Positions 5,676-53,665 of a DNA stretch of 64,000 nt are shown here, one piece after another. Origin of the DNA: Effrenium voratum (taxonomy: Eukaryota; Sar; Dinophyceae; Suessiales; Symbiodiniaceae); the NCBI GenBank assembly GCA_963377175.1, contig CAUJNA010001001.1, positions 805,721 through 869,720 of the forward strand, written 5' to 3'. The notes below the pieces were generated by a model that searched no databases, was not told the origin of the DNA, and worked only from the letters and a program-made list of their open reading frames with translations. Position 1 is the first letter of the stretch. Each line of letters begins with the position of its first letter. Made by a program: the position numbers and the translations under genes.

Positions 5676-6612
5676 GTGGGGCCCAGGACGCCGGCCACAC
5701 AAACAAAAACAATCAGGGGCCCCCTCAGATTAAAATGTGTTTTCTTTTCCGCGAAAGCGTTTTGTTAGGGGTTGGGGCCGTGTTTAATATTAGGGGGAAC
5801 GGAGGAAAGGCAGCCTCTGGGGATTCGTGCACTTCAAGGGCCTTGTTTGTTTTCCAACAAGGTGAAAAGGTAACCCTGCTTGGGGCAAGGCCAACTGAGC
5901 ATTGCAGCCCAGTCGTCCACTTTTGGCCTTAGAGCAGTGACACCGCCAAGTGCTCCAAATTTGGTGCTTCTAGAAACCACTGGTTGACCCACTTTTTCGC
6001 ACAAGAAAGGGAGAACATTAGTAGCGACACTGCGATGCACGAATAGTTGCGGCTTTCCCCCACCCCTTTTGAGGCGGTGGGTCCTGGCTTGGGTAAGCTC
6101 CATCACCAGGGTTTGACTGTGACTCATTGGTCTTACATGGTGTTTCATGTAGCTACTGAGCCAACAGAAAGGGCATCCATAAACCATGGTTCTTTGTTCT
6201 CAATGAAGGAAGGTGCAACTAGAAGTACAGCGAACTCTCCGAATGGTACTCCATTCCTTTAAACTTTACAGGGGGGAAGTGCCTATGTTGACGGCACTCC
6301 TTGAAATTTCCTTGGTGTACATAAAACCTGATGTTCATAGCTTCCATCAAAGGATCCCCCCCAACTGAGGAATATGTCCAAGACATGTACATTTTCGCCT
6401 GGGGTGGGCGACGTAGGATTGTCCTTGGCCTTTTGAGCCGCAAGCCTCTGCTATTCAGTCAGTCAGGGCTTCCAACAAAACACCATTTCAGTGCGTTCCA
6501 ATGAGTGCATTGTTCCATCTGGAATCGCGAAGGATGTTTGTTTGCACTCACATGCACGAACACCACACCAACTTACACAACACACGCAGTATGCCATACA
6601 GCACACGCACGC
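5676..6612. other. Non-coding stretch
   Basis: Nothing supportable is seen: no long biased frame, no clear inverted or tandem repeat, and no RNA gene. Confidence 0.4.
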
Positions 6613-6975
6613 ACACACACCTACACACCTACACACCTACACACCTACACACCTACACACCTACACACCTACACACCTACACACCTACACACCTACACAC
6701 CTACACACCTACACACCTACACACCTACACACCTACACACCTACACACCTACACACCTACACACCTACACACCTACACACCTACACACCTACACACCTAC
6801 ACACCACACCTACACACCTACACACCTACACACCTACACACCTACACACCTACACACCTACACACCTACACACCTACACACCTACACACCTACACACCTA
6901 CACACCTACACACCTACACACCTACACACCTACATACCTACACACCTACACACCTACACACCTACACACCCACAC
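6613..6975 (+). repeat. 8-bp microsatellite (CCTACACA)n
   Basis: About 45 nearly perfect tandem copies of an 8-base unit, with one slipped unit near 6805 and one T variant near 6933. The array grades into CA-rich sequence on both sides. All three forward frames stay open because the unit and its rotations lack stops, so the repetitive Thr-His-Leu peptides are artefacts. Confidence 0.97.
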
Positions 6976-7598
6976 CTACACACGCACACACACACCCACA
7001 CACCCACACACGCACAACCGCACAACCGCGCACGCGCACACGCACACACGCACACTTGTAGACGCACGCGCAAGCATGCGAACATGCATTGCGGATATGC
7101 TCACATGCATTGCATGTGATACTCATTCGCACACTTAGACGCTTACTTTGGAATACAGAAGGCAGAGGGTAGGCTGATGCTTGTGAAACTGCCTGGAATC
7201 AAGCGACGGAGGTACAAAGGAGCAGCTTATTGGTCCGCTCGATGTTATGTACGATGTATGGTTGAAAACATGCAAATTCAGAAAACATGAGGTTCCCGCC
7301 AAGCAACACAATATGCAGCACAAACATATAAATAGGTGGAGGGTGGGGCGAGGCTGAATGCATCAGACGTAGTGTGTCATTCCTTTTGAATCCGCTTGTT
7401 TAAAGTGATTAATTTTCTTCCGTGTGCTTGGCACTGGCCGGGCCGGGCTGGCCGGCTCAGGTAGTACAAAGCACCAGTTGACCGGGCTTCAGAGATTCTA
7501 ACAGACATCAGGGTTGCTCTAAGCTTCCAAAAGATGGTCAAACCAGAAAGGTAGACATGTGGTTTGGTTTCTTTTGGTTTTCCCTTTCCAGCGTTGCC
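6976..7598. other. Non-coding stretch beside the microsatellite
   Basis: A decaying CA/CG-rich tail to about 7060, then unique AT-balanced DNA. No gene is seen. Confidence 0.4.
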
Positions 7599-12639: not shown

Positions 12640-12775
12640 CGGGCCCGTTGAGCCCGTGTGGCCCGTTGAGCCCGTCGGGCCTGTTGGGCTGTTGGGACCG
12701 CTGGGCCCGTTGGGACCGTTGAGCCCGCTGTGCCCGTTGGGCCCGTGGGGCCTGCCCGTTCGGACCGCTGAGCCC
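12640..12775 (+). repeat. GC-rich 9-bp tandem array, copy 1
   Basis: A degenerate array of GCCCGTTGG-like units. In some frames it would read as Gly-Pro-rich collagen-like peptide, but it lacks exon signals and sits inside the composite repeat. Confidence 0.8.
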
Positions 12776-12778
12776 TCT

Positions 12779-13130
12779 GCTCTGGCTCGTCTTGGCTCGC
12801 TTTACTTTTCTTTACAAGAACTTACATGTGTTTAGACACGTGCCAAAAGTGTGGTTTTACCTGCATCTCGGAAGGTTCGCGGAAGGCTCGCGGAAGGTTC
12901 GCGGAAGGGCGAGGCGGAAGACTGTTTTTGGAACAAGGCTCACGAATATATGTATGTTGTGTTATGTATGCTATTTTATGCTGTGCTGTGTTATGTTATG
13001 TGATGTTATTATATCACATTATTTGTGTAGTGTTATGTATGTTTTGTAATGTAATGTGATGTATGCGTGTATGTATGTTGTGTATGTTATGTATGCAATG
13101 TACGTAAGTATGTATGTTGTATGTAGGTAT
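12779..13130 (+). repeat. Direct duplication, first copy
   Basis: It starts CTCTGGCTCGTCTTGGCTCG, contains AAGAACTTACATGTG and several GCGGAAGG units, and runs into TATGT-type repeat. It matches 13680-14050 closely, about 900 bp downstream. Confidence 0.85.
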
Positions 13131-13670
13131 GTATGTATGTATGTAATGTATGTATGTATGTACGTACGTACGTATGTATGTATGTATGTTGTGTTGCGTT
13201 GCGTTGTGTTGTGTTGCGTTGCGTTGCGTTGTGTTGTGTTGTGTATGTATGCATTTTTGTACGTATATGATATGTGTATGTATGTGTGTTTGTATGCATG
13301 CACGCATTCATGTATGTGTGTATGTATGTATGTAATGTAATGTAATGTAATGTAATGTAACGTAACGTAATGTACTGTAATGTAATGTAATGTAAGTATG
13401 GTATGGTATGGTATGGTATGGTATGGTACGGTACGGTATGGTATGGTATGTTGTGTTATGTTATGTTATGTTATGTATGTATGTAGTGTATGTAGTGTGT
13501 AGTGTTGTGTATGTAACATAATGTAATGTAATGCAACGTCGTGTATGTGTGTATGTATGTTATGTATGCTATGTACGTATGTATGTATGTTATGTGAGTA
13601 TGTATGTAATGTATGTATGCGTGTGTACGTGTATGTATGTATGTATGTATGTATGTATGTATGTTATGTT
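13131..13670 (+). repeat. TATG/TAATG/TGCGT simple-repeat array
   Basis: Successive homogenised patches of ATGT, TGCGT, TAATG and ATGGT units. The Tyr-Val-Cys-Met-rich frames on both strands are repeat artefacts. Confidence 0.95.
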
Positions 13671-13679
13671 ATGTCCCCT

Positions 13680-14050
13680 GCTCTGGCTCTTCGTCTTGGC
13701 TCGCTTTACTTTTCCTTTACAAGAACTTACATGTGTTTAGACACGTGCCAAAAAGTGTGGTTTTACCTGCATCGCGGAAGTTCGCGGAAGGTTCGCGGAA
13801 GGGCGAGGCGGAAGACTCTTTTTGGAACAATGAATATGGGGTAAACTTCATGTATATATGTGTGTTATGTTATGTTATGTTTTTTTACGCTGCGCTATGT
13901 TATGTTATGTTTTGTTATGTTATTATGTGTGTAGTGTTATGTATGTTTTGTAATGTAATGTAATGTGACGTAATGTAGTGCAATGTGATGTATGCCTGTA
14001 TGTATGTTATGTATGTTATGTATGCTATGTACGTAAGTATGTAGGTTATG
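13680..14050 (+). repeat. Direct duplication, second copy
   Basis: Second copy of the block at 12779-13130, with small indels (for example one extra A in CCAAAAAGTG). It is followed by more ATGT/TA repeats up to about 14260. Confidence 0.85.
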
Positions 14051-14064
14051 TATGTATGTATATA

Positions 14065-14098
<34 letters not shown>

Positions 14099-14270
14099 GT
14101 ATGAATGTATGTATGTGTTTAATATATGTAATATGTGTAATGTATGTATGCATGTATGTTTGTAATGTGTGTATGTTATGTTATGTTTTGTTATATGTTT
14201 TGTTATGTTATGTTATGTGGGTAATGCGATGTATGTAGTGTATGTATGTAATGTAATGTAGCGCAACGTA

Positions 14271-14505
14271 GGCCCGCTGAGCCCGTTGGGCTCGTCGGGC
14301 CCGTCGGGCCCATTGGGCCTGTTGGGCTTGTTGGGCCCGCCGGGGTCGTTGGGACCGCTGGGCCCGTTGGGCCCGTTGAGCCCGTTGAGCCCGTTGGGCC
14401 CGTTGAGCCCGTTTGGCCTGTTGGGCGCGTTGGGCCCGTTGAGTTCGTTGGGCCCATTGAGCGCGTTGGGCGTGTTGAGCCCATGGAGCGCGTTGGGCCC
14501 GTTGA
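14271..14505 (+). repeat. GC-rich 9-bp tandem array, copy 2
   Basis: About 26 degenerate units of GCCCGTTGG / GCCCGTTGA. Both strands are open and give Gly-Pro-Leu or Gly-Pro-Thr repeats, so coding cannot be inferred. Confidence 0.85.
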
Positions 14506-14663
14506 TTTTATTGAACTGACCGGTTTAACACCTGGGTTCTGACTGCACTAAGTGACGGGTATTTTGCTGCACTAAGTGACCTGTTTAACACTTGGGTTCT
14601 GACTGCACTAAGTGACGGAATTTTTGCTGCACTAAGCGACCTGCTGACCGACGTGGAACGCAG

Positions 14664-19090: not shown

Positions 19091-20647
19091 GCTTTGGTTT
19101 TGAGCTGCCATTGAAAGGGTCATTTGTGCATGTCACCTGAATGGACCCAGTCCCGGCCATGGGTTTCTGTGTAACGGTTTACCCATGACGCTGATCAGAT
19201 GCGTGCCAGTTGCCTGACTAGTTCAGAATTCACCCAGGGTTTCATATTTCCCCTACTGAAACTGTGATGATTGGACATGTTTAAATCCTACATTCAAAGC
19301 CGACCAATAGTGAACCAAACTTATGCTAAGCTGCGTGTTTTGTTGCAAAGACTTTCGACCTGGATCTGAGTGGGGTGAACATGCGAAAGTCATCTTCTCG
19401 GGATGCAACGTGGTTGGCAATTATTTGACACACGACAAGCAAACACATCGGTACCAGCTGATTTAGAGCATCCCTTGCAAATCAGGTATTTTGTGGATGT
19501 ATCCTGTAAAAACCCAGGTATATGATGTTCAAAACAACAACCATGTTGCTTCTATGGTCATGACTCAGCTTCTTGTTGTGTGTTTCAGTACCGCACAACC
19601 ACATTTGAATTATGTAGGCCCGGGTTTGTATGTATGCTTCTTTCCATTCATATGCAGATGCATTTGTTCCGAATATATCTCTTGTTTTGCGTTTGCATAC
19701 ATGTGTGCAATTTGGCAAATCCAGGCGCAGCAACAATGCGAACATCGGCAGCAAAGCTTGGAGGCTGGAATGCATACTATATACCCAACCGGGGAGGTTT
19801 TTTTCCGCGGCCTCGCCGAAGGTTTGTTTGGAATTCCTGGCAAGTGATTCATTCAAAGGAAAGGATCTTTGGCTTGTGGGATTCCTTTCAAAGTTGGAGG
19901 TGTTCTTCACTGATGCTGGCATGTTGCTTTCTTGTTGGTTCCCTTCATTTTAGTGGGGGGCTGCAAAAAATTAGACAAACGTGTTTTGCTGCCACCTTTT
20001 CGGGAACCAACTCAACTTTTTGAGATTGTGGTTTTCTTGCGAGGGAGTATCCTCAACTTCCATAGGGAATGCCGAACTGGCAAATTCACATACCTCAAAA
20101 GGTCTGCCCGCCAAGAGGAGCGTGCCACGAAAGCATGGAGGGGGCGCCCCTAGATCCCCCCTGCAGTTTGTACTGACAATTGAGTAAACGGATTTGGATC
20201 GACTCGAGTATTTGTTTCAAATGATCACCTGGGCTCTGTGGGTTGCAGGTCTTTAATGCTCCATGCTTCAAAGTCCTGCCTCATTTAGGGACCCAGGGCT
20301 TGCTTTTGATCATGGTAAAGACGGGTAAAGCGATAGATAGCACAGTGACGATGGCCCCTTATGTCAAAACAAGTTGGGATCCAGGCACGATCGAAATTGG
20401 AAACAGGATCCACAAGTTGTGGAAGGATGCTCGTTTTGCTCACGATAATACCCACCTCTTGTCCGTTTCACAATTCATTCGAAGGGTTCTGCATTGAAGG
20501 CTTTGACCAGCTAAGGGAGACATATGAAGCCCTCCCCCCACTCCCCAGAAAGGTTCTCGGTTCAGGCCCCCCCGCCCCAACCCACCCCCGAGGAAGGTTC
20601 TCAGAATGTTTTGCTGGTTGGTTTGTCGGTTTGTTTGTTATTGGCTA
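19091..20647. other. Non-coding stretch
   Basis: Several medium-length open frames overlap here without coding-like composition or recognisable similarity. No gene is called. Confidence 0.35.
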
Positions 20648-20791
20648 GTTGGTTGGTTGGTTGGTTGGTTGGTTGGTTGGTTGGTTGGTTGGTTGGTTGG
20701 TTGGTTGGTTGGTTGGTTGGTTGGTTGGTTGGTTGGTTGGTTGGTTGGTTGGTTGGTTGGTTGGTTGGTTGGTTGGTTGGTTGGTTGGTTG
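20648..20791 (+). repeat. (GGTT)n tetranucleotide microsatellite
   Basis: About 36 tandem GGTT/TTGG units, nearly perfect. The Leu-Val-Gly-Trp frames are artefacts of the repeat. Confidence 0.97.
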
Positions 20792-22921
20792 GCCTATAGC
20801 GTGAACTGCTTCTCACCCTTCAACTCATGTCAGCTTCCCAGGGGCTTGTGAGGCTTCTAAGCCGCGCACCTTCGCATTTCACGGTAACATCAACACATGG
20901 GGAAGGGACTGTACCCGAAATTGTCGCTGGACAATTGTGTACATGGTGGGTACACCTTTTTTTCAGGCTTTGACGACGACGCTGCTGATTCTCAAACTTT
21001 GGATTGTGTCCGAATAGAGCGTCCAGGGATTTGGAAAGGGTTTTAGGTTGCCACTTTCTGTGCTGAAGGGAATCCCATTGAAAGGGATAAAATATAGAAT
21101 GGCTCGGAAAATCCCACTTCGGTAGCGATGGTTTGCTATTGTGTGGAAGCTCTCATGTCATCGTCGCTTCACACAGCTACCCTTGAGGCAGACGACTTTT
21201 GGGTTCCAAATCCCTTCTTGACACAAACCTATATTGTGCTTCAACTTTGGTTTCCATACAATGACAGGATGAGGTCTGATGACAGACGCCCTTGGCGTCC
21301 GGAATCTTCGTCCCACAATCGTGTGGTACGTCCTGGCAATTGTGCCGCTTTGGGTTTTCCAAAATGATTGGTTCCCCTTTGATCTTCCCTGAATTCGAGC
21401 CCAAGGTACCGGTCAAAGACACACCCAGGGTGTCCCTCTCAAAGCAAGCATCAAAGAACCGGAAGTTGCAGGCGCGAAGGCATCCTGACATGGTTTGGTA
21501 CCTTCGTGTTCTCACGCGTGCGAAATTCCCATGGGCAATTGAGACATTTGAGAAAGCATTTTTCAAGGATCTGGTCCCATGGAAGACAAGTCTGCGCTTG
21601 CCCTAGTGATTGCAAGTAAGGGAGCAAGGAAACCCTTCTATCTGGCCAATGCGTTGAGGCTGATTCACCCAAGCACTATTTAGGGAATCCACGATTTGGC
21701 AAGCAAAGCCTAAAAGGAAAGAACGCAGAAGGCACAGCTGTCTATGTTGACCATGGTGCATATTGGGACAATACACTCGCATTTTGTAATGCCTCTTGTC
21801 ATGCCTACTGACCCCAAACAATATACATACATACATATATGTACCAGTCCCTGGGCCACGTACCCCCCCCCCCCCCCAATGGTATGGTCCCCCCACTCCC
21901 CCGCATCATCCGCATCTTGGGGATGATGCTGGCAATGCTGGGGATGCTGTCCAGTACCGTGCGAGCCCTGCAGCTTCGGTCCCAGACCCCCTTTCACCCC
22001 GTGAACCAACACCCCCGCACCTCTCGCAACATCCTACCCTAAACCAAACCACCCTGCAACCCCCTCCCCACCCACCCCCCACCAACCCACCAACCCACCA
22101 ACCCACCCCCACCCCCACCACCCACCCCACCACCCACCCCACCCCCACAGGGGGGGGGGTTGGCCCAACCACCCAACCACCCCACCACCCCACCACCCCA
22201 CCACCCACCCCCACAGGGGGGGGGGGGTTGGGGGGGGAGGGGGGAGGGGGGGGGGTCCACGGCCTGGAACATATATATATATATATGTTATAAGTAGAGG
22301 GTAGCGGAAACAAAGGACTATGGGGTCCTAGTGCTTAAGTTGGGGTACTCCTTGAGACGTGCATGACATCAACCTAGGTGAACGATTCAAAGCTGACCTG
22401 ATTCACAGTCTCAACTATATTTTTGAGGTAAGTCAAACAAACACCTTACCACGGGACTTGGCAAAGCTGGGAGAGCTACGTGGCTGGTATAGAGATGTTA
22501 CCTAGAACCTCGCGTGCTTGTTGTCCCTCAGCTAATTCCACAAGACCTCTCTGAAGATTTGTCGGGTATACCTGAGCTGAATCATTGGACGCAATGGGCG
22601 CAACGGGAATTAAGCCCGGGTTTCCCTACAAACAAAATGCTAGGGGAATGCAATCCATCTAACGGGGCATATGTGGGGAACGGTGTTAGTATTGTTTATG
22701 GACACTACGGCTAATCCGGCAGCAACGTGGGTATTGACCATGTTGGCAGCTCTCTTTGTTATTTCCTCCAGATCAGCTTCTCTCTGGTGGTTTGGGTGTT
22801 TGATGGTTAGGCAGGGTATCCCATCCACTCGCTACCAGGTTCAGGTCCAGATCCAAATCCGCACCACAAATCCGAACCACCCAACTGGGAAGCTGAGCTA
22901 AGCCACCTGCGTCCGTGGCAG
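20792..22921. other. Non-coding stretch with low-complexity C/G blocks
   Basis: It contains a CCACCC-rich tract (about 22050-22220) with two CACAGGGGGGGG... blocks, a long C run near 21865 and TA runs on both edges (about 21820-21840 and 22270-22286). No gene is supported. Confidence 0.5.
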
Positions 22922-23485: not shown

Positions 23486-23494
23486 ATGTTGAAA
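23486..23494 (+). repeat. Candidate target-site duplication, left
   Basis: ATGTTGAAA, identical to 32172-32180. The left copy is in the opposite sense to the left TIR units, which argues against it being a TIR unit. The right copy could be mistaken for a decayed TIR unit. Confidence 0.55.
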
Positions 23495-23745
23495 GGGCTC
23501 CCTTTTTTTTTCACCCTTCATACTTGTTTTTTCAACCCTTCCTTTTTTTTTAACCCTCCGACCTTTTTGGAACCTCTCAACGGGGACCTTGTTTTTCTAA
23601 CCCTCAGGAGTCCTTTTTGTTCCAACCCTTGAAATTGTTCTTTGCACCCTCAACCTTGCTTTTTTCACCCCGAACCTTTCTTTTTTCACCCTCCCCCCTG
23701 CCTTTTTCACCCTCGGCCCTGGTTTTGTTAACCCTCAAACTTTGG
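23495..23745 (+). repeat. Left terminal inverted repeat (tandem units)
   Basis: About ten degenerate units of the type TTTTTTTCAACCCTCGGACC, T-run plus ACCCT. It is the reverse complement of the array at 31978-32171. Confidence 0.8.
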
Positions 23746-24416
23746 TTTGGCGCACTGGACAGCAGCTTTGGTGTGTAACAGGCAGAAGTTGTTCAATTTC
23801 TTAATGGTTTTTTGTCCTCGACCTTGCTTTCATCATCCCCGACTGTTTTTTACATCAGCGGATTGAGTTAATCAGGGCAGTTTGCATGGGAAGATAACGA
23901 TGGATCACGAGTCACTTAGACAACGGGCTCAACGGTTGCACTCTGGTTACTGGTCCTATGTTCCTCGCCGCGTTGCTGTTTTTAGTTGGAGTTGTGAGCT
24001 TATGGCCCCATCCCACCTCTTGTAACTTCTCCTCAATAATGCTTACCGTAGTTTCAGCCTTGCTTCTTTGTATCTTGAGTTCAAGTGAAGTTGTTCAGCG
24101 CATAGGTTATCCGTACACGGTTTGCTAGGTAGGCGTATTGATGCGGGCTGAAGCAGATGTTACTCAAGGCAGAAACGATGAAGGGAAGTGTTTGCGAGGT
24201 AGATAGGTTGACTGCGACCGATATGTGGACATCGCGTGCTTAAGGGGAGCTTACTCCAGCAGCGTTCGTGCGACTTGTGGTTTGCAAGATTAAACGAATG
24301 GCAAAAGCGTGGGCCACCTTCTTGTCACCATCCATACTTGTTGAACAAGGTAGCGCGAGCAGCGTCTCATGCGCGGAGTTTAAGGTAGCGGCGCGCGCAC
24401 ACTGTGAGTGGCCCGT
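23746..24416. other. Element leader, non-coding
   Basis: Between the left TIR and the subterminal repeats. No open frame with coding character is present; a promoter may lie here or nearer to 25.1 kb, but none is visible. Confidence 0.35.
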
Positions 24417-24670
24417 AGGCTTCGGTCACAGACCTCGGTGAGGCAGCAGCGCGCGCGTTGGCGGCTGTCTTCCCCTAGCTCAGCGCAGTTGGTTCAGGCT
24501 TCGGTCACAGGCCTCGGCGAGGCAGCAGTATGTGCGCTGGCAGCTGTCTTCCCCTAGCTCAGCGCAGTTGGTTCAGGCTTCGGTCACAGGCCTTGGCGAG
24601 GCAGCAGTGTGTGCGCTGGCAGCTGTCTTCATTTATGTCAGCGCCATTGCTACAGGCTTCGGCCACGTCG
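24417..24670 (+). repeat. Left subterminal direct repeats (about 79-bp unit)
   Basis: Units start AGGCTTCGGTCACAGGCCTC at 24417, 24496, 24575 and 24653 and contain GGCAGCAG and TAGCTCAGCGCAGTTG. Related units occur at 31638-31965 in the same orientation, in contrast to the inverted outer arrays. Confidence 0.85.
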
Positions 24671-24730
24671 CCGTAGAGCGGCGCAGTTGATGTCGCTGTC
24701 GGATACTCCGTCGAGCATGTCTTCGCGGTA

Positions 24731-24873
24731 GCAGGCTGTTGCCACGTTCCGCACAAGCAGCGTGAAACAGGGGCACCCCGCACAAAAGAGCGCGAAAGAT
24801 AAAAGGCTGTTGCCACGTTCCGAACCAGCAGCGTCAAACAGGGGCACTCCGCACAAAAGAGAGCGAAAGATAC
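24731..24873 (+). repeat. Tandem duplication of about 72 bp
   Basis: Two copies of a block containing GGCTGTTGCCACGTTCCG, AAACAGGGGCAC and CGCACAAAAGAG, about 72 bp apart, in the leader of the element. Confidence 0.8.
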
Positions 24874-25214
24874 ATAGAGGGAGAGACAGATAAGAAGAGA
24901 GCAAAGGTGTAAAGGTGATGCAGATAACTTCTTCCCATCCGCGAGTTTCAGACGCATCGCTCAGGCTCGGACGCAGGCGAACAAGACGAAGATTCCGTTG
25001 ATGGGCGGGCTCGCGCCTCAGACTGAGCCCGTGTGCAGCAGTTGCAAGAGTGCTAGCAAGCGCGCGAATCACCAGCAGACAGTGGCATGCAAGCGCAAGC
25101 CGTGAATGGGTGGCTCGTGTTGGCTCAACGTGTCAGAACGACTTGACACGGAACGGCTTTTTAGGTGCACGAACGGAACGTGTCTAGTGGGAGAGCAAAC
25201 AGCTCATCAGCAGC

Positions 25215-26961
25215 ATGGAGATGGCGATGTGCTACGCGGTGGCGTTCTTGGTCGGAGTGGTCATGGGCGCGATGGCTGCGGGCCCGCAAGTGCGCGGCGT
25301 TGTGGCGCGCGGCAAGGTTTTGAAAGTGAAGGGCCGCCGCCGCGGCCGAAGGCAATGCGTGGGGGCAGTTCGGCGCCACGCAGCGATGGCGGGCGTGCTG
25401 GGCACGCTGATGTTGCTACCAACAGTACAGGGGCTTTTGCATGGGGCTGCTGGCCTGCTGCAGGTACCGCCAGCGATCGTGGCTTGTCTTGGCATTGCGG
25501 TTGCTGGATGGAAGTCCTTCTTGTGGGGCAAGAGGACGACCAGCTGGCAAGGATGTTCTGGCGCCAGGCAAAGTTATGCGGTGCGGGGTGGCGCGGAAAA
25601 GCAAGAACAAAGGCAAGAGTGCAAGCTTGAGCGCGGAGAGGAGCAGTTCGAAGGCACAGGCCTTTGCAATGCGGGCAACACATGCTACATGAATGGCGTC
25701 CTACAGGCTCTCTTCCATTCCAAGCAGTTATGCCTTAGGCTGCAAACACATGTTGCGCAGAAAAAGTGCGCGGCCGACTGCGCCACATGCTTGCTTTGGC
25801 AAACCAACGAACTTCGACTCTTTGGCCAAGCGGACCGTGCGACCATGGAGATGTGGAAGCCTTTCTTGCAAGCAGCTGGGCTAGGTGGCGGTGAGCAGCA
25901 AAGTGCTGCGGACTTTGCCATGTCGTTGTGCTCCAAGGCGCGGGGCAGCAAGCCGGTTGTGTATAGCGCCGGTAAAACCCTGCGAAACAGGAAGGTGCAG
26001 TTTCCCAAACACACTGGTAGACAGGGCGCGCGAAGAGTTGCTTGCGGGCACACGGGGTGTCTTACACGGGGTGTCTTGTTTTTGCGGGCCCTTTCGTTGG
26101 GTTGCTCCACAAAGGACGCAGGGAAACTGCAAGTTTGAGGGACTTTAGCATTGAGATCCCGAGGTAGAGGACACTGTGAAAGGGTGCTTCGGAATGCAGC
26201 TGCTTCGGCAGCAGCGCCACAAGTGCAGCGTGGACACCTGCAGGAGCTACAATGTCGCGCGCAGCACGGAGATGACCGAGGCTTGGACAGTTCTCCTTGT
26301 TGAGAACACGCAGCGCAGTCGCGCCACTGCACAGGCGCTGATACAGCGCAAGTTCCAAGGCCAGTTGCTGCCGCAAGCCTTGAGGTGTGATGCTTGTGGG
26401 GGCCAGAAGGACGTTCTTCAAGAGTCCAGGCCTTCGTCAGCGCCAGAGGTCTTGATTGTAAGTTTCCCTCGAAACGGAAACGGCCACGTGGACCCGCACA
26501 CAGGGCGATGGTGCAAGAATGAGCGCGAGGTGGACTGCACAGGGCCAGTGGAAATCAACGGCACCTTGTACAGGTTTGTAGCATTAGTGGAGCATATTGC
26601 TTTAGATTGTGGTGATGCTGAACAGGGGCACTTTGTGACATGGACCATGGAGGGTGGTAGCTGGCTCCGGTACGATGACACTGTGGTGACACGAATATCT
26701 GCTTTGCCGAAGAAGGTTGCCAAGAGCGTGGTGCTGGCTGTGTACGAGACTTGCGTCGTGACTAGCTTTGCGACAGAGCAGGCTGCGACTGGGTCAGTTG
26801 CTGATATGACACCCACAGACCCTGCAGCCAACGCGGAAGACAGAGCTGGCGTCCACTGTCCTGGACTCGCAGGCTGGGGAGGCACTGCAGTCAACAGCAG
26901 GGGTGGACGCAAAAGCGGAGAGCCTTGGCTTGCAGACCTTGCCCTTTGCGGAAACCGCTGA
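25215..26961 (+). pseudogene. Ubiquitin-specific-protease (USP, C19)-like gene, split in two frames
   Basis: The first open part (25215-26138) starts with an ATG and two hydrophobic stretches (residues about 5-22 and 58-98), possibly membrane anchors. It then has the USP Cys box GLCNAGNTCYMNGVLQALF (Cys157, codon 25683) and the QQSAADF box. The second part (26176-26961, another frame) has CFGMQL, a CDACGG zinc-ribbon half and the His box: VEHIALDCG, GHFVTW (His codon 26629) and WLRYDD. Cys, His and Asp of the triad are all recognisable, but the two halves are joined only across about 100-200 unresolved bases, by an intron or by damage. USPs cleave ubiquitin from proteins. Plant MULEs are known to carry a different (C48/Ulp1) protease. 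Confidence 0.7.
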
Positions 26962-28295
26962 TGGCACCCTGGAGTTCGAAAGGGATGTGGTCGCTGCCTT
27001 GTCCATCTTCCAAGCCGGTGAGGATGTAGCTGCGTTTCTCGCGAACCTGCCGGCTTACAGCGTGCGATCCTTAGCGGGCTTCAAATTGCGAGGGCGGTCG
27101 ACGTTGGGGTGGGGAATTGTAAGAATGGTGCGCATGGCTGCCTGCTCGCAGGGTGGAACCACACGAAACTGGGTAAAGAAAAAGCATTCAGAGTGTTGCT
27201 TGCTATGTGCTTAGGCAGAGATTTTGGCAATGGAGCAAGCAGACGTGAAGGAGCAGTGATTGCCGGGTTTGAAGCTGATGAGTTTGGCGGGAAGCAGGCG
27301 GTGGAGCTGCAGTACCCGCTGTGGCGGACAAGTTTTTACCCAATCTTGGTCCTCATGGAGGCATGGAGTCGGAGCACTGGCATGCCGACCGTGTTCTACT
27401 ACGATGCTTTCTGTGCGCTTCTAATGGGTCTGCTCCACAAAGAGATCTGCGTGGATGTGGCGGGCTACCCGTGTCGCAGCCGATACTGGGCCATTGGCAC
27501 AGCGCGCCCTGGAAGCGGGAAGAGTCCGGCAGTGGACCCGATGGTTGAATGCCTTCGCAGCTGGATGTGGCTGGGACAAGTTTCATTTGTTAGGTCCGGG
27601 CACGCATTGTGCGGCTGTCGACAAGCTAAAGGTGACAGATGGCTACGCCACGCTCATAGCTGGTGAAGGCGGCCCTTTGCTCTGCCCATCCTATCCTCAA
27701 AATGGCACTTGGAATCAATCCACACACATCAACTTTTCCAGGTTCTTGGACAGCGCTACAGCCATTGACCGCAAGGCCAAGAAAGAGTCGGCGGAGGACA
27801 AGGTTGTGCCGGTCAAAGGTGTACCCTTGCAGAAGACCAACGTAACCTTTGCTTTGCTGCAGCAGCTGTCCGTGTGGCAGAACTGGTGGGTGGCTAGCGA
27901 GGTTCGTAGCCAAATTGGTTTGCCGCAGCGGTGCATGTTCTCATTCGGAGCTCTCCGGGATCCAGGCCCGCCTCGCCTGCAGGGCTTTGAGAAGCAGGTG
28001 GTGATGCCCATTCTGCGCCGCATCTTTCAGTCTGTGCTGAAGTCAATAGGTTGCAAGGCGCCGATGGCTATAGATGCGCCTGCAAGAGAGTGGAAGCTCA
28101 CGCCGGCTCTGAAGGAGGTGTTCCACGCATACCGTCTGACTTGCCGGGATGTCACCAAACGCACTTTTTTTTGAGAGACGTTGGCAACTGGACTGCGCAA
28201 GGCGCCTTATTGGGTTAGCACAGTGGCTCTTTTCGGAACTTTGATGGAGGAGCTGTGGCCCCTTGCGTGTGGGTGCCTGGGCCGTAGGTAGGGTT
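26903..28295 (+). pseudogene. P-loop NTPase resembling DUF3987, frameshifted
   Basis: The opening block (26903-27214) has no recognisable domain. From about 27180 one frame reads KAFRVLLAMCLG and reaches a Walker A-like box GTARPGSGKSPA (27496-27531). Near 27550 the sense moves to the next frame (GWDKFHLLGP, GYATLIAGEGG, INFSRFLDSA) to 28174, and a further shift near 28190 restores LRKAPYWVSTVALFGTLMEE. The GSGKSP box, the acidic/GEGG block and the following helical part resemble DUF3987 proteins, helicase/primase-associated NTPases of phages and mobile DNA. The similarity is judged by eye. At least two frame changes point to a decayed gene, unless short introns are present. Confidence 0.5.
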
Positions 28296-28335
28296 TAGCT
28301 GGGAAAAGTGTCTATAGCTCAGGACCAAGACAACC

Positions 28336-29218
28336 TTGCCAACGTGGAGTGGCCAGCTGAGCGCGGAGGGGCTGAAGATGGCCACACTATGCTTTCAGGA
28401 GAGATTTCTGTACGGCTTGTGGCTGTCTTGGAGGTGGATATGCGCAAGCATGGTCGTTCAGCGCGGCGCACGCCAGAAGCCATCTGTAGCAGAGGCCGTG
28501 GGTTCAATTGGGTTCAAGCTGCAAAATGCACGCAGTCGGACATGCTAGCCTTGACAACCACAAGACACGACCCATGTAAACTGCATGAAAACTCGAGTGC
28601 GGAGTGGTTGATGTGTGGTTGGGCGCACGGCAGGGCGTGGAAGCGATGGGGGAGCTCCTTCGCACCTTGGTGGGCTCAGGGTGGCGCGCAGAGTGGACGC
28701 GGCGGTGCGGCCCGCCCTTTCGCAACTTGCCGGCCCCGCTATGGAAAGAAGGCCCGTATGAGGAGGTCATGGCGCTGTTAGCGGAGCGTGGTCTTGGACA
28801 AGTGCGTGGGCAATGCTTCGACAATGGGCAGGAGCTAGTCTTTGTCAAGTTCGCCTATTCAGTGTTGCCCAAGGAAGCCAAGGATTCGCTGAAGGAAATG
28901 GGCGTGCCTAGCTGGTCATTTGGGCCACCCAAAGCGGAAGCGCGTGATTGTCTGCAACCAAGGCACGGAGTTGTGTTCTTGTCTCGGGCAGTGTCTCGCT
29001 TCGAGGCGAAACTTTGCTTACCAGCCTCAGGCAGCTTTGCAGCGAGAAGAAGGCGCAGCCGAAGCCGGCTATTGCTCCAAAGAGGCTGGGAGAGCGCATG
29101 CTCCAAAAGGCGAGTTAGAGATAGGAGGGGCAGGCTGGAATTGTTCTTCTCTGCATTGAAAGTGACAGGGTTTGCTGAACCGCTGTTCACAGGCAAGTGT
29201 ACCTTCATTGCAAGTTAG
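28336..29218 (+). pseudogene. Unidentified frameshifted coding remnant
   Basis: Protein-like segments alternate between frames: QERFLYGLWLSWRWICASMV (from about 28400), then GPYEEVMALLAERGLGQVRG and LVFVKFAYSVLPKEAKDSL (28604-28950), then another frame. It may be the C-terminal part of the preceding P-loop protein or a separate gene. No domain is recognised. Confidence 0.35.
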
Positions 29219-29303
29219 TTCGCTCCACCACTCATCTTTCAGACAATGGTCAATTGCGGCTGCAACCATGATGGGAGAGAGCTTTGAACACTAATATGAT
29301 TTC

Positions 29304-30173
29304 GTGCGATTGAATGACTATTTTGTGGGTGCACCCAGCATCACCCAGCTTGGAAGGTCAGCGACGACGCCGACTGTAAAAGAAGGAGAGCCGCCTTGCG
29401 CGCCAGAGGAGGGCCCAAGCACACCAGCGGAGAGTTGGGCGATAATCTTTCACGGGAAGCCGTGCGATGGCGCAGATGTGGCAACCTACACAGGCTTGCG
29501 GAAGGCAGTGGAGCGTCTTCTTGGACGGCGGAAAGACCAAGGCATTTACACCTTCCATGAGAAGCAGTTGAAGAGGGACGGCAAAACGTTGCTGGGGATC
29601 TGCCAGCAAAGTGTGTGCGCCGGCTGCACACGACAGGTGAAGGCAACCCTAACCTTCGAAGAGAAAGGGCCGCTGCTTTGCGTGGAGCAAAAAGGGTGCC
29701 ATGGGAAACTGCAGCCCCCGCGCGGCGGCTGCTTGTGGACATGCGCGGAGGCGTGCGCTTTGGAAGGGCTGGAGGAGAAGCGGCCAAAGGTCACGTCAAA
29801 GGATGTGCGAGAAGCCTCGAAGGCCCAGAACTTGAGCCTACGATGCAGCAATACTCAACTGCACAACTTTGTAGTGCGATTCAACAACGCAGGCCCACCA
29901 CGCTCTGCCAAGAGCAAGGTGACGTTGAGCGAGCTGCAAAACGCAGCGCTACAGCACACGTGCTACGCGAAAGGCATCGAGGCCTCGCGCCGCAAAGTGT
30001 TTCCTTACGCACGCCCATGTGATGACTATGCTCACATGCGGCGAGCAACCTACAAGGGCATGCAGAAGTACTTGCCGGCCAAGAAGACCCCAAAGGTGAA
30101 AGCGCCGGAACCTCAGTTTGTCACACAAGCAAGAGCAAGCAAGACAAACAGGCTCGTGTTGTTGCAGTTGTAG
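29304..30173 (+). CDS. Cys/His-finger protein of the element (possible WRKY-GCM1/FLYWCH-type DNA-binding N-terminus)
   Basis: A 289-residue open frame with an uncertain start (the first codon of the open stretch is GTG). Residues about 105-135 hold a finger-like pattern, ICQQSVCAGC followed by CVEQKGCHG, which resembles the WRKY-GCM1/FLYWCH fingers at the N-terminus of MULE-type transposases. Helical basic sequence follows (TSKDVREASKAQNLSLR). It ends with Lys-rich sequence and overlaps the start of the next coding remnant. The Asp-Asp-Glu catalytic core expected after such a finger was not found in any frame, so it is either deleted in this copy or the family is different. Confidence 0.45.
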   Translation: MRLNDYFVGAPSITQLGRSATTPTVKEGEPPCAPEEGPSTPAESWAIIFHGKPCDGADVATYTGLRKAVERLLGRRKDQGIYTFHEKQLKRDGKTLLGICQQSVCAGCTRQVKATLTFEEKGPLLCVEQKGCHGKLQPPRGGCLWTCAEACALEGLEEKRPKVTSKDVREASKAQNLSLRCSNTQLHNFVVRFNNAGPPRSAKSKVTLSELQNAALQHTCYAKGIEASRRKVFPYARPCDDYAHMRRATYKGMQKYLPAKKTPKVKAPEPQFVTQARASKTNRLVLLQL

Positions 30174-31341
30174 AATTGTGCAGATGTGTACCGAGAGCAA
30201 GCGCCGTCAACTGCGCAGGACACCCAAGAACAAGGGCAAGAAGCGGGGCGCCTCGTCAAGCCCGGAGAGACCTGCCACGCCGGCTGCAGATTTGACAAGC
30301 ACGCCGGACGGGAGCACCTTTGGCTACTGGGAGAAAATTGTCCAGATTAGCCGCGAGGTGCCGACTGTGCAATTGTTCGATGCGGTCTGGCAATTGGCCT
30401 TCCCGTGGCTACGGAAGAAAAGTGCGCAAGCTGCAGAGTACTTTCAGCACACGTACTTTCAGAAAGTGCCAGTTGGCAGTCTGCAGAAAGGCTTCAGCTG
30501 CACTTCTACAATTTGGGGGGCAGAAGGACTTTGGTTCAGTGGCTTCTGGGGAGGGATCTTGGGAACCTACCCAGGCAGTAGCTCAGGAACGCAAACACTG
30601 GAGTCCTTTCATGCATACTGGCAAAGCAGCATCAAGGGCCAAAGCAAGGGTATCACCGACAGAAATCTTTGCCTCTATGCAACAGCTGTTTGAAAACGAT
30701 TGGGCATCCAGGTTTGCATGGGAGGAGGAGAAGACTTTCGTGACATGGCCCGCCCGCTCCGCAGATGCATTGTTCAACAGCAAAAGCCTGCGGTCCGCGG
30801 GCAGATCCCCTGCGAGGGATTTTTGGGAGCATCGGGAGCCGCGGCTGTGTGGCAATCTCAACTACCGCCAGGTCTACATCCGCACTGGGGAAGCAGGCGG
30901 AACCGATGTGGACGGTGTGACAACTTTCTGGGTTCTGCAAAGCAGACTGCAGGGAGGCGTGATGCCTGCAGAGGCGGTCGTGACGCCGCAAGTGGCCGAG
31001 ATGGTCGCAAACCTCATAGCTTCCGAAGGCCCGCAGCTCGAAAAATGGTTGTGCAAGGCTGGATTGCCAAGGATGGGGAGTTGGAATTGAAAGCGTTGCA
31101 GAAGTACATGCAGCAGTACTGCGCAGTGTTGGAGGGGCATCTTGCACAAGCTTCCTGGCCCCGCGTGCGCCGCAAGCTGAAGAAACCAGTTCCAGGCAAG
31201 CTGTGTACATGCCGTGAGTTCTTGCTACATGGAGATTGCGAACATGTGCTTTATGTCAAGGCGCTGCAAGATGACCCCACTGCTGACATGCGGAACATTC
31301 CAACCCAACGACGCCGGGGACGCAAACGCAAGACCTGGTGA
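30118..31341 (+). pseudogene. SWIM zinc-finger protein, probably the C-terminal half of a transposase, frameshifted
   Basis: The sense runs in one frame from about 30181 (basic linker, then FGYWEKIVQISREVPTVQLF and GTQTLESFHAYWQSSI). It changes frame near 30640 (EIFASMQQLFENDW ... PQLEKWLCKAG) and returns near 31050. There it ends with the SWIM finger C-T-C-(x8)-C-E-H (codons 31204, 31210, 31237 and 31243) and a basic tail RRRGRKRK. SWIM fingers typically sit at the C-terminus of Mutator-like transposases and bind DNA or protein. The two frame changes occur without inserted sequence, so they look like indels rather than introns. Confidence 0.6.
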
Positions 31342-31637
31342 AGAAGCCACTTTGCCACACGCCTGCGAAGCCATTTGGCCACATGCCCCGTGAGAAAAAG
31401 GCAGCGTAGTTTCATTGAAGCAAGTGTGCTACACCTGCCTTTCCAAGCTTTGCAAATACGCATGTCTTCCCCTTTGCGGCTAGGCGGTGGGTGCGGCATC
31501 ACGTCGAGAGCCCGGTTGCGCCAAGGTGCACCAGGCCCGTGAGTCAGGGCGGTCGGGGTGGATGGGGCAACGCTGTGAAGCAACAAGGGGAGCGGCTGCC
31601 GGCCAAAGAACATTTCTCCGAGGGAAGCAGTTGGTGT
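31342..31637. other. 3' region of the element's genes
   Basis: Non-coding. No terminator-like or polyadenylation signal can be assigned. Confidence 0.3.
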
Positions 31638-31965
31638 AGGCTTCGGTCAAGGCAGCAGAGTGTGCCTGTGTGTGTGTGCCCTGCAGCTGTCTTCCTCTAG
31701 CTCAGTGCAGCTGTGGAAGGCTTCGGTGCAGCTGTGGAAGACTTCGGTGCAGCTGTGGAAGACTTCGGTTGGAGCCTTGAGCTGCGAAAGCCTTTTGTCG
31801 CAGGTCTTGGTGAGGCAGCAGTGCGTGTGTGTGTGTGTGCGCTGTGGCTGTCTTCCTATAGCTCAGTGCAGTTGTCGCAGGCCTCGGCGAGGCAGCAGTG
31901 TGCGCGCGTGCAGCTGTGTTCCTTATCGCAGCTTAGCGCAGTTGCCGAATGCTTCGGTTACAGGC
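31638..31965 (+). repeat. Right subterminal direct repeats
   Basis: Four or more degenerate units containing AGGCTTCGGT, GGCAGCAGTG and TAGCTCAGTGCAGTTG, interrupted by short GT runs. They have the same orientation as the left set. Confidence 0.8.
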
Positions 31966-31977
31966 CCATCAGGGCAA

Positions 31978-32171
31978 AAGGCAGAGGGGTTAAAAGGCAG
32001 AGGGGTTAAAAGGAAAGGGTAGAGGGTTGGAAAGAAAGGGGGGAGGGTTAGAAAAGAGGGGTGCGAGGGTTGAAAAGAAAGGGGGGAGGGTTAAATAAAA
32101 AGGTTTGAGGGTTAGCAAAAAAGGGAAGGGTTGAAAAAAAAGGTTCGGAGGGTTGAAAAAAAAGGTTCCCC
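31978..32171 (-). repeat. Right terminal inverted repeat (tandem units)
   Basis: Degenerate units such as GAGGGTTGAAAAAAAAGGTT, the complement of the left array. The outermost units match best between the two ends. Confidence 0.8.
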
Positions 32172-32180
32172 ATGTTGAAA
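32172..32180 (+). repeat. Candidate target-site duplication, right
   Basis: Identical to the 9 bases at 23486-23494. It sits in a small palindrome (CCATGTTGAAAAAACATGG) and resembles the GGGTTGAAAA of the TIR unit, so chance or repeat decay is a competing explanation. Confidence 0.5.
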
Positions 32181-49310: not shown

Positions 49311-50941
49311 GCAGAGTTTGGAGCAGCTTGCAAAAGTTGAGGCTTTCAGGCGTGGTTCATTTGGGGACATTCTGGTGATGTAGGATGTTGACTGAATTGA
49401 CCAGTCTGAGGGTCGACCGACTGGCATGCTTACTCTGGATACGAGCGTTTGATCACTGGTAGTCTTTTGTTGGTTGGGGAGGACACACGGGGCGCACGTT
49501 TTGAGCAACCGCCCCTATTATTCAGAATGTGCCATGTTTTAGTATTTGCGTTGTAAGAGGAATGACATGGTTCACACTCACCAGTTTTCCACCAAGAAAT
49601 GAGGGGAGTGGTGCTTACCCGTTAGTTGAGGACTCAACGGCTCAACGAATATAGACTGTCCCGCATGTGCAAGGCCCTACTAAGAACATGTTACGGCTTT
49701 GTTCTGAAGGGCGCGCTTGTGGCAGGGCTCACTTGATTATGCTTTTATTGACAGCGTGTTCAGGACGACCGATAGCTTCTCTCAACGACAGAAGTTTTTA
49801 ATGGTGGAAGTGGCACATACTGCAATTAGTTGCAAATTGGTGTCATGTTGTTTCCTGCAATCCATTGTTTGTGGGTTGTTCTTGCTACAGTATTGCTGCA
49901 TTGCTCCTCATGCCTCACCCTGATGGCGAGTTTCCGGTTTAGGTTGTCCAACGTGAAATGGGCAAGCAACAGACCCTTTGCGCAAAAACACAGGTACGCC
50001 AGTTGAATCCCTGGGCGCTTTTTTGTTGACCCGGGGGCCCCAGCGGGTTCTAATAGGTGAAGATCGTTTGCACCCAAGGACAGTCAGGTGTGCAGCATTG
50101 GACATCTTTTGTTAGAACCCATGGGGGTCATCCAACAGGAAACCAAAGGGGATGGATACCAACTTGCAATGGAAGTTGACAGGCCTTTTCAAGAGGATGG
50201 TAGTCTTCCGAACCCCTCCGATCGTGCTTCCATTGTGGGAGAAAGAGTATGTCCTTTGTTCAGACGCTCACCGATCATGACTGATGTACTCCGCTGCAAA
50301 TAAACATGGAACCCCACAAGGACATGCCTCTAACAAGTCAATGGTCATTTTGGGTGCGTGAAACTGACTCCAGGTTATTTAAAGCAAACATTTGGAGGGA
50401 ATTTGAAGGTTCCCCCCCCGGATCGAGTTCGTTTGCTGGCGCCGCTGCGTTCACTGCGGAGTGGCAACTTGCAACAAGGAAGAAGCACATTTGGAGGCGC
50501 GGGTGGGAAACCCCGTTAAGTCACCATCTAGCTCCTGTAGCTTTGAGGATGGCACTTTGCACCCAGCAGGAACCAGCCGGTTTGCTGTCAGTCTTTTACT
50601 GGGGAAACCCATTGGCTACCCGTTGCCCTGGGCCCTCAAACATTCCTTCAAACTTGGCAAACACACAAATTTGGGGGCAAGCCATTTCTATTGCCAGTTT
50701 GAGGATGTTTCAGGGGTCATTTTGGGGGCAACGTGTATTACAATTGGGTAGTTTCAGGGTCCAGGTAATTCAACAGAACCCAACCCGCGCCCCCTGTCCC
50801 ACCCCCCCACCCCCCCACACAGCGTCAGGTACGGTGCTCTCGGGTACCGTGAAGCCTCAGATGGGCATTGTGGTGCCTCAGGTGGGCGAGGCACGGATGG
50901 GTTTTGATCCCGTGAAATCATGCAATGCAGTATAGTATATA
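49311..50941 (+). other. eEFSec intron 11, part before the retroelement
   Basis: Non-coding. C-rich runs lie near 50410 and 50800-50820. No gene is supported. The intron continues to about 56.05 or 56.46 kb. Confidence 0.4.
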
Positions 50942-51049
50942 TGTGAATGCATTGAGTTTGGTAGGCTTGGGTATGCAATGATCATTCCTTGATGTCTTGC
51001 CATTTTGGGACTCAAGTGGCCTTGATCCAAAAGTGGCTGTTTTTGAGTC
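50942..51049 (+). repeat. Split direct repeat A1
   Basis: Starts TGTGAATGCATTGAGTTTGG and ends GTTTTTGAGTC, with only a few differences from A2. It contains GCCATTTTGGGACTCAAG (50999-51016), which resembles the dinoflagellate spliced leader apart from two extra bases. Confidence 0.85.
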
Positions 51050-51057
51050 AGTTCACC

Positions 51058-52115
51058 ATGCCTCTGCTGCGTCCTGGCATCCATGTGGCGGTGCACACGG
51101 AGCTTCGGATGCTGTCTACAGCGGCGTGGTGGGACTCTAAGCAGCACATCATCCTTGTGCAGGCCCGGGGGGACCGGGTCGCCACTCTTCGGCTGTGGCA
51201 GTCAGTTGGGATGGTGCTGCATCTCCCCCCGGGTGACGGGGAGAGTGCTTTTGAGGTCCCTGGGTTGCCCCCCATTTTGTTCTTGCCTTGCACTGAGGAA
51301 CAGTGTCGAAGGTGCAGGGACCGTGTTGGGGGTTTCAGATTCCCGTGGATTGGCACCTGGACGCGGCGGCATGTCCTGGCTCGAGATGGTGAGAGCGCTT
51401 CAATCGTTTGGGCCCGATACCATCAACACCATGATGCCTTCGAGCTTTTGGGCATCGAGATGGCGCGCAGCCGTTGGGTGCTCGGGGACGGCCCCGCCCG
51501 AGGTACGGGCTTTGGCCCGCGCGGTTCGCGGTCCTCCAGAATGCGTTCTTGTCTGAGGAGGACGCCTATGCAGAGGGATCCGAGCTGGCCGAAGCCTGGC
51601 TGGACACCGACGACAGTGCAAGGGAAGAGGTACTTCCCGTCCATGAAGAAGCTGAGTCTACAGCGCCTCTTTCTTTTGCCATTGCGGTCGCGGCTTCCTG
51701 GTGGGCAGTGCGTATGGGACGCGCCAAGTTGCACGTGCCGCGCATGCCTCAACCTGAGTGCACAGGTAGGAGGGAGCACTGGCTGGACTTTGTGAGGGAA
51801 TGGGCCATGGAGCCGTTGGCAGTCCAGCTGGGGTTGCGAACCCCCTGCCCACAAGAAGCAGCCCGCCTTTTCCAGGAGAGAGGAGGTGCTCACCGAGACA
51901 GGGCTCCCGTCCGACTGTATCTATGTGACCAAACCACCACTCGCATCGCCTGCCGGTGGGTACCTGGGCGTCCCCATGGACCCAGGGGTGGATTGCTGGG
52001 AGGATGAGCGGGCGGCTTTGTATATCCAGCACATCCTGCAGTCCGACTTGAACTGCGACCTTGCGGCCTTGGCTTGTGATGTGCTTGGGACCAGTTGTGT
52101 GAAGCAGATCTGCTA
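51058..52115 (+). pseudogene. N-terminal coding part of the retroelement (unidentified, gag-like position)
   Basis: An ATG in an ACC-ATG context starts MPLLRPGIHVAVHTELRMLS. The sense then shifts near 51480 and again near 51890 (LTETGLPSDCIYVTKPPLAS). No domain is recognised; the position suggests a gag-like or structural protein. Confidence 0.5.
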
Positions 52116-52182
52116 GCAGGCCTGGTTTTCCAGGCTACGCACCCGGCTTCGCCCTCTACTCCACTGGGGCTCCAGGCGCAAG

Positions 52183-53665
52183 GTGCGAGCGCCCCAAGGT
52201 CGCCGAGTCCTGTTGGCAGGAATGCTGGGTCAGGCCCAAGCAAGCGTGCCACAGTGGAGTCAGGAGGCTTTGGTGCTAGCTTTTCGCAAACTCTTCCCAG
52301 ACCACTGGTTCCACAACTTTCAGTTCCCCATGGTAGAGGACTTGATCAGCTGCACCCCGATTTCTGCCTTCCCCAGCTGGCGAAGAGAGGCAGGGTATGA
52401 ATGGGATGGGCCGTCAGGTCCGCACTTGGCCGGAGCGGGGGTTCGCCTTTGGCAGCGAGTGACCAAAGGTTCCTTGTCGCACAAAGCAGCACCAAGGCTC
52501 CCTTTTGGCCTGTCGGACGATGACCGCTTCAGCCAGGCAATGGCCATCAGCCGGCATCCTCTCCCGATGGAGCAAGAGACAGTCTTGGATGAGGACCTAG
52601 AGTTTGCGGCATCTCGGTTGCAAAGCAGATGGCAGCCAGTGGACCGTCACCTCCGATCTTTCCAGAGTGAAGCCGTCCAGAGAGTTACTGCAAAACGAGA
52701 TTTGGGCTTTACTGCCTTGCTCATCGTCCTTCAGTCCTGGGCTGACACCTCGTACTGTTTTGGACTTGTGCGCGGTTTGCCAGCGGTTGGCTTCGCGCCG
52801 CGCCGCATTATGGTGTTTTCCCGCAGCAACCAGCGTGCGTGATCTCGCAGCGGGATGTCTTGGAAGGATGGTGGGGCACAACCGCGCCATATTGCAAACT
52901 TTGCGAGCAGGCAAGGATGATGAGGTGCTGTTGGAGCAATCCGAAGCTGATGCGGCGGCTGGCTTTTGCACTCCGCCTCTCACTCAACAGCAGTTATAAG
53001 CAGTCCTCAGCAGCGACCGTATCGGTTAATTCCACGCTGCATGAGAGTGCAATCCTCAGGCAAAAAGCGCATCATTGACAACGCAGACGCCGGCGGACAA
53101 TCTGAGCGCTCCCAGGACTCCAACAAACTCGTTTTCTGTACACCGCTGAGGCCGGCGGCACACGTCGCGGCTGTCATGAGGCACATGACAGCTGCACAGG
53201 TTGCAGAGTCTCAAGGCAACGGTTAATGGTTGGGAGTCGGGTGGAGAAGACTGGCCAAATGCCTACAGACATGCACCCATGGGGGACGAGGAGTCCCTCG
53301 GGTGCGTGGTGGCATTCTTCCATCACCAGTGGGGCAGGTTTATGGCGGACTTCTTTTTGGGTTACCGCTTGCGGTCACATCCTTCAATCGGTTTTCACGG
53401 CTGGTAGAGAGTCTGGCCAGGCGACTGGTGTACGTGCTTTGTACCCTTTACTTCGACGATGCCAGGCCCTCACCCCATTTGGGCACGGTGCACACCGAGG
53501 GAGTTGTCCGATTCTGGGCTCGCGAGCGTTTGCAGGAGAAGCTGATGGGCTACATCCGGGCATGCCGGGACAACGATCGTTTGCCTCAGGGCAGGCATCC
53601 AAACTCTACGGGCTGGCCAATTTCTTCGAGTTGGGCTGAACGCCATCAAGAACCGGCAGGCTGAG
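52183..53665 (+). pseudogene. Reverse transcriptase of the retroelement, frameshifted
   Basis: An upstream part contains RKLFPDHWFHNFQFP. The polymerase part reads DWPNAYRHAPMGDEES (motif A region, about 53251-53300) and WGRFMADFFLG. After a frame change it continues FGLPLAVTSFNRFSRLVE and the intact catalytic box YFDD (53449-53460). The pattern AYRHxP ... PLAxxxFNR ... YxDD matches DIRS-type polymerases. At least three frame changes break the gene. Confidence 0.75.

Follow-up and report, generated by a model that had tools for sequence, protein, structure and literature searches.

Mutators that carry ULP1 are known from plants and Helitrons that carry OTU or VTD domains from animals. We analysed a locus of the dinoflagellate Effrenium voratum that lies within a stretch of 64,000 nucleotides of contig CAUJNA010001001.1 (assembly GCA_963377175.1), hereafter called the window. 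An element of 8,677 bp (23495-32171), bounded by two inverted arrays of ~21-bp units, holds there the remnants of a protease, an ATPase and a transposase. It is very probably a defective cut-and-paste transposon of the Mutator/IS256 type from the Symbiodiniaceae, whose intact relatives encode a polyprotein of deubiquitinase, P-loop ATPase, WRKY-like zinc domain and DDE core with SWIM finger, and which would work by the mechanism outlined below. A deubiquitinase-type domain was found in all 13 ATPase-bearing relatives that include the upstream stretch, and these domains belong to three classes, namely C19 USP (seven proteins), OTU-like (five) and Josephin (one).

Ends and transposase

The outer 70 bases of the two ends align with a score of 39, as compared to a mean of 9.0 (s.d. 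2.7) and a maximum of 21 in 2,000 shuffles. Across the ends, the outermost pair (23501-23568 versus 32097-32165) shares 83% identity in blastn and the remaining four pairs 69-75%, which bears out an earlier reading of the locus, made from the sequence only, that the arrays are inverted and match best in their outermost units. Of 160 registers, the top six (0, 1, 5, 6, 7 and 8 bases inward) all score 39-40, as a tandem array would lead one to expect, and because several inward registers score alike, the alignment alone is insufficient to fix the end of the element. The exact end is set by a 9-bp duplication, ATGTTGAAA, which the same reading had listed as a candidate and which is an exact match adjoining both ends directly; its own parts set aside, a comparison of 25 x 25 offset pairs gave no second match 8-11 bases long. 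The word occurs three times on the + strand of the 64 kb and not once on the - strand, and random pairs of 9-mers drawn from the window agreed in 3 of 400,000 draws. Inside the arrays, repeats of a 79-bp type lie in both subterminal regions, related to each other and in the same orientation.

Mutator elements duplicate 8-11 bp of their target, usually 9, and the element has two of their traits, terminal inverted repeats and an exact 9-bp target duplication (seen in one copy). The DDE core has an RNase H fold that is closest to IS256/Mutator. Among 41 relatives that we found, 11 keep the DDE triad and 17 share with the window a SWIM-type CxC...CxH motif. The proposed Mutator-like nature is therefore supported by core, ends and duplication, although the Pfam family MULE stays below its cut-off. 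Searches further afield returned no match in the PDB for a profile of the ATPase-transposase part, none in NCBIfam or PHROGs (five proteins against each), none for Rep/helicase in the six relatives that were scanned (E<=0.1), and none among phage records for P0036; viral contigs and prokaryote genomes gave pattern matches and no relatives of the element. Plasmid records searched with the ATPase piece yielded three hits, none better than E 1; the best overlaps transporter-like frames on the other strand and was discarded as chance.

The polyprotein and its deubiquitinases

Of the 41 relatives, 13 are assigned to an organism, in each case Effrenium, Symbiodinium or Durusdinium. The closest of these are from E. 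voratum (over 30-40% of the query, P0005 shares 98% identity, P0028 97% and P0029 95%), where close relatives lie on five different contigs. The 1,994-residue model P0029 is collinear with the window from 25317 to 31219 (tblastn), and the window's domain order is found in one protein in P0034 (2,205 residues), P0036 (2,032), P0033 (1,691) and P0038 (1,627, stopping ahead of the SWIM finger), encoded on contigs of 20.8, 11.6, 6.0 and 6.3 kb, respectively; the coding part of P0033 takes up 5.1 kb, leaving about 1 kb of its contig for anything else. All coding pieces of the window that match relatives are on the + strand. Judged by these alignments, they are one gene and not four, so that of the four unidirectional gene remnants suggested earlier the common direction stands and the separation into four genes does not.

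The protease of the window is of the C19 type, as the sequence-only reading had it: Pfam UCH matched above its cut-off in two pieces, with a Cys box (GNTCYMN, 25674-25694), a His box (GHFVTW, 26626-26643) and a YDD motif ending at 26679. C48, the family of ULP1, had no Pfam match in the ten window pieces scanned, in which UCH matched instead. The P-loop protein was likewise recovered through its Walker A motif (PGSGKSP, 27508-27528) and through tblastn matches to the ATPase part of the relatives, whereas the label DUF3987 given to it remains below threshold. The WRKY-GCM1-like domain is a candidate with support at the level of the fold; of the SWIM finger the CTC...CEH motif is present, and the Pfam score falls short (15.3 bits versus a cut-off of 19.6).

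Outside the window, the Josephin assignment of P0033 rests on a profile match of 9.1e-11 (42.3 bits versus a cut-off of 26) and on ataxin-3 in the PDB at 6.3e-5. P0030, P0031 and P0040 are OTU-like, as are P0032 and P0041, in which only the histidine half was recognized. The 13 proteins counted for this domain do not include P0001 and P0039, whose sequences start downstream of the N-terminal part. Both USP and OTU-like types occur within E. voratum (P0029 and P0041) and within D. trenchii (P0037 and P0031). For trees of the ATPase, only relatives with a P-loop motif (15, then 13 of the 41) were used together with the window, giving 16 and 14 rows, the smaller set being without two rows of unknown deubiquitinase class. 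Counting only well-supported branches, the USP label changes at least three times on either tree, which speaks against a labelling artefact caused by the two unknown rows. The OTU-like rows cluster with USP rows of E. voratum (100/99), and the USP protein P0037 pairs with the OTU-like P0032 (100/99). Shuffled labels needed 4.8 changes on average, and 33 of 500 shuffles reached as few as three, so the classes cluster in part, a pattern that inheritance combined with an exchange now and then would produce. Because the exchange is recurrent, deubiquitinase activity appears to matter, and the transposon would seem to need deubiquitination, whichever enzyme supplies it.

In two proteins, P0030 (OTU-like) and P0037 (USP), a stretch resembling ASCH lies upstream of the deubiquitinase, below cut-off in both; this stretch may have belonged to the polyprotein before the deubiquitinase did. 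Public records name P0010 and P0031 RPL15 or Ribosomal protein L15, apparently a wrong annotation.

The copy in the window

The start codon at 25215 was accepted since P0028 begins alike. Junctions in the broken frame of the window copy were spliced to match the E. voratum models. Borders of the GT...AG or GC...AG kind were found at four of the seven junctions tested and no accepted borders at the other three, for which reason part of the broken frame probably represents introns, and the view that all frame changes are decay was rejected. The intron placed at 27026 may begin too early, its true donor lying further on, since P0030 reads coding-like there. Five frame changes (near 26.84-26.91, 27.25-27.27, 27.55-27.56, 30.53-30.65 and 31.03-31.22 kb) lie inside overlapping flanking tblastn matches which leave no room for an intron, and they are thus real lesions. 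In addition, an internal deletion removed residues that are present in P0029, P0001, P0004 and P0005, and only the third of the acidic DDE residues remains.

With these lesions the window copy is defective and non-autonomous and cannot encode an active transposase, and any past or present movement would have been in trans. P0005 has the same frameshifted tail as the window and keeps the catalytic region. Either an already broken lineage was copied on, or both stem from one duplicated copy; the shared tail would point to movement in trans, with a segmental duplication as the alternative.

P0028 lacks, near 27.76 kb, the same eight residues as the window, which P0029 and P0001 have; this is either a shared in-frame deletion or a choice of the model. 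The gene models of P0029 and P0028 run on into non-coding DNA 3' of the gene and therefore match the window there too, P0029 to 31809 and P0028 to 31766, so that about 410 bp or less separate them from the right end. Beyond these points blastp (E up to 10) detects no similarity between their tails, which would fit insertions at different places, without reaching the ends.

Table 1. Positions of features of the element in the 64,000-nucleotide window
Feature	Position	Strand	Evidence or remark
Left target-site duplication, ATGTTGAAA	23486..23494	+	Exact 9-bp match to 32172-32180 at the edge of the terminal inverted repeat
Left terminal inverted array, ~21-bp T-run/ACCCT units	23495..23742		Begins GGG
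Left subterminal 79-bp direct repeats	24417..24666		3.2 copies
71-bp direct repeat	24733..24872		2 copies
Remnant of a single gene for the deubiquitinase-ATPase-transposase polyprotein	25215..31341	+	Collinear tblastn to P0029 (25317-31219) and P0002 (to 31338); frame breaks, likely introns, core deletion
C19 (USP/UCH) domain	25656..26703	+	Pfam UCH 1.2e-7 and 8.8e-9 in two pieces, above cut-off
Likely intron, GC...AG	25968..26163	+	Spliced product equals P0029 exactly at the junction
Likely intron, GT...AG	27026..27214	+	Spliced match to models
P-loop ATPase domain, DUF3987-like	27253..29085	+	tblastn: P0029 over the whole part; P0033, P0034, P0036 and P0041 to about 28.26 kb
Likely intron, GT...AG	28255..28322	+	Spliced match
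WRKY/GCM1-like zinc DNA-binding domain	29433..29730	+	
Internal deletion junction	29955..29963	+	About 140 residues of P0029 (1222-1360 unmatched); both catalytic Asp gone
Remainder of DDE domain	29964..30650	+	Includes third acidic residue (TLESFH, 30595-30612)
Likely intron, GT...AG	30116..30218	+	Spliced product equals P0004 exactly at the junction
SWIM zinc-finger motif, CTC...CEH	31204..31245	+	Pfam SWIM below cut-off
Right subterminal repeats	31627..31966		Related to 24417-24666; models P0029 and P0028 include parts of them, to 31809
Right terminal inverted array	32003..32171		Closes with CCC
Right target-site duplication, ATGTTGAAA	32172..32180	+	Exact copy of 23486-23494

Elsewhere in the window, an uninterrupted frame of 1,368 residues (213-4319, + strand) matches Pfam RVT_1 at 2.4e-10, with an RNase H match below cut-off, and is seemingly an intact frame of a non-LTR retroelement. 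Adjoining frames of 177-276 residues at 50285-54082 (+) resemble a fragmented retroelement, and the six of them that were scanned gave no Pfam hit at E<=0.01. Repeats of ACACACCT, GGGCCCGTT, the TATG type and TGGT form long arrays at 6602-7055, 12641-14643 and 20615-20792.

Explanations, known systems and meaning

Several points weigh against the transposon with a built-in deubiquitinase. Both ends and their duplication are known from one copy only, and the link between protein family and terminal inverted repeats rests on this one element; two of the relatives, P0001 and P0004, are at only 72-80% identity. For E. voratum and D. trenchii the proteins are gene models, in which frame breaks may be masked by the choice of exons. 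Of the class changes, one depends on the pair of P0037 and P0032, the weaker part of the evidence: P0037, a gene model, sits on a long branch and its UCH match spans 32 residues, and P0032 has the His half only. Among profiles, Pfam MULE (PF10551) at E<=1 matched two of the 28 members (0.028 at best, with 15.3 bits versus a cut-off of 27.6), a limit of the profile which lowers the label and not the mechanism; SWIM was found in 3 of 28 relatives, below cut-off (best E 0.038); and DUF3987 (PF13148) in 3 of 16 members (E 0.0039-0.012, 15.3-16.9 bits versus 27), always with the same end of the profile, the ATPase being too poor in the predicted model to assign a fold. Activity and substrate of the deubiquitinase are predictions.

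Given the fact that Mutators frequently capture fragments of host genes (in the passages of PMC2528002), the protease could be a passenger without a role, derived from a host USP exon by transduplication in the style of Pack-MULEs. We regard this as improbable, because a passenger would hardly be expected to be replaced by enzymes of like function, as in the 13 proteins with their three classes; moreover, the USP is fused with the ATPase in one protein in divergent relatives, and the Cys and His boxes are kept in the five USPs that were aligned (P0034 being without the usual Asp). Slightly less credible still are two nested elements, one foldback-like and holding an earlier-inserted, different DDE element, so that inverted repeats and coding part would be separate. 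The terminal arrays do resemble foldback ends, and P0029 and P0028 could be traced no further than 31809, which leaves 362 bp to the right end. But between 24 and 32 kb the guanine-plus-cytosine content hardly varies (57-58% in each of four 2-kb bins, as against 51% in the two that hold ends and flanks), related subterminal repeats flank the gene on both sides, and the remaining inverted pairs whose two arms both lie within the arrays measure only 20-23 nt.

The smallest chance is left to a multi-copy domesticated host family encoding a deubiquitinase-ATPase-DNA-binding protein, which the repeats would adjoin by chance. The likely introns and the occurrence of the multi-domain gene in several Symbiodiniaceae would suit it, and the sequence-only reading had named single-copy host genes with conserved introns as what would speak against an element. 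Introns are indeed likely; the copy number, with close relatives on several E. voratum contigs, points the other way, as do the inverted ends edged by an exact 9-bp duplication, the decay of the window copy and the DDE triad kept in part of the relatives.

The Mutator/IS256-type transposon thus remains the preferred explanation, and it builds on direct observations of the ends, the duplication, the gene order, the acidic triads of relatives and the domain classes. In the mechanism that we propose, the zinc and SWIM domains would bind to the repeat units that make up the terminal arrays, and the DDE core would excise the element and insert it with a 9-bp stagger, of which the duplication is observed and the catalysis presumed. 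The ATPase might perhaps help to assemble the transposition complex or to choose its target, like TnsC or MuB. The deubiquitinase would remove ubiquitin, either from the transposase itself or from host proteins present at the site, and the complex may in this way escape degradation or silencing, a role suggested by its presence in every relative showing that part and by its replacement with other deubiquitinase classes. A more far-reaching version is tentative: the family could be a distinct dinoflagellate DDE lineage with deubiquitination and ATP hydrolysis built into the transposase, in which one slot was refilled several times (USP, OTU, Josephin) and escape from the ubiquitin system would be obligatory for transposition.

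Accessory proteases of ubiquitin-like systems are an already known kind of cargo in DNA transposons (C48/ULP1 in Mutators, OTU/VTD in Helitrons). IS256-family insertion sequences are bacterial and consist of a transposase alone; ISCth4 (PDB 6xgx/6xg8/6xgw), presumably one of them, stands at 8-10% identity. In Tm1 we know of no accessory genes of the kind described here; going by the title of PMC3169594, these elements of root-knot nematodes are Mutator-type with foldback-like ends. Mutators of the FAR1/FHY3-Jittery type have a WRKY-GCM1 zinc domain, a transposase core and a C-terminal SWIM finger, which correspond to the core and to the candidate zinc and SWIM domains of the window family; the passages of PMC2528002 that say so mention neither deubiquitinase nor ATPase for them, and Pfam MULE is under its cut-off in the window family. 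KI-MULE/Kaonashi (KIU) and other ULP1-carrying plant Mutators are likewise Mutator-type with a cysteine protease of a ubiquitin-like system (PMC13317346, PMC2528002). There, as far as these passages go, ULP1 has a gene of its own in Arabidopsis, reverse to mudrA, in elements without terminal inverted repeats, whereas the window family has such repeats and a C19, Josephin or OTU-like enzyme fused with ATPase and transposase. A counter-silencing role has a precedent in plants, where KIU genes with ULP1 are found in Vandal elements that counteract silencing (in passages of PMC13317346). Helitrons and Helentrons with VTD and/or OTU also encode deubiquitinases of exchangeable class; as passages of PMC9741609 describe, VTD and OTU substitute for each other in Helitrons and herpesviruses, from which its authors likewise draw a functional conclusion. 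Helitrons differ in having rolling-circle RepHel and no classical transposase, their VTD class is neither USP nor Josephin, and the inverted repeats and target duplication of the window are unlike the criteria for a Helitron. In titles, starts of abstracts and passages of open-licence PMC papers we found no description of a deubiquitinase fused with a P-loop ATPase and a Mutator-type transposase with exchanged classes; an earlier account in subscription papers, preprints or Repbase is possible.

That this family has its enzyme joined to the transposase and swaps one class for another argues for function over accident, and with a single-protein system the role of the protease in transposition becomes testable. 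Dinoflagellate chromatin is poor in histones, and for this reason the family also bears on whether protein stability or histone ubiquitin is the target.
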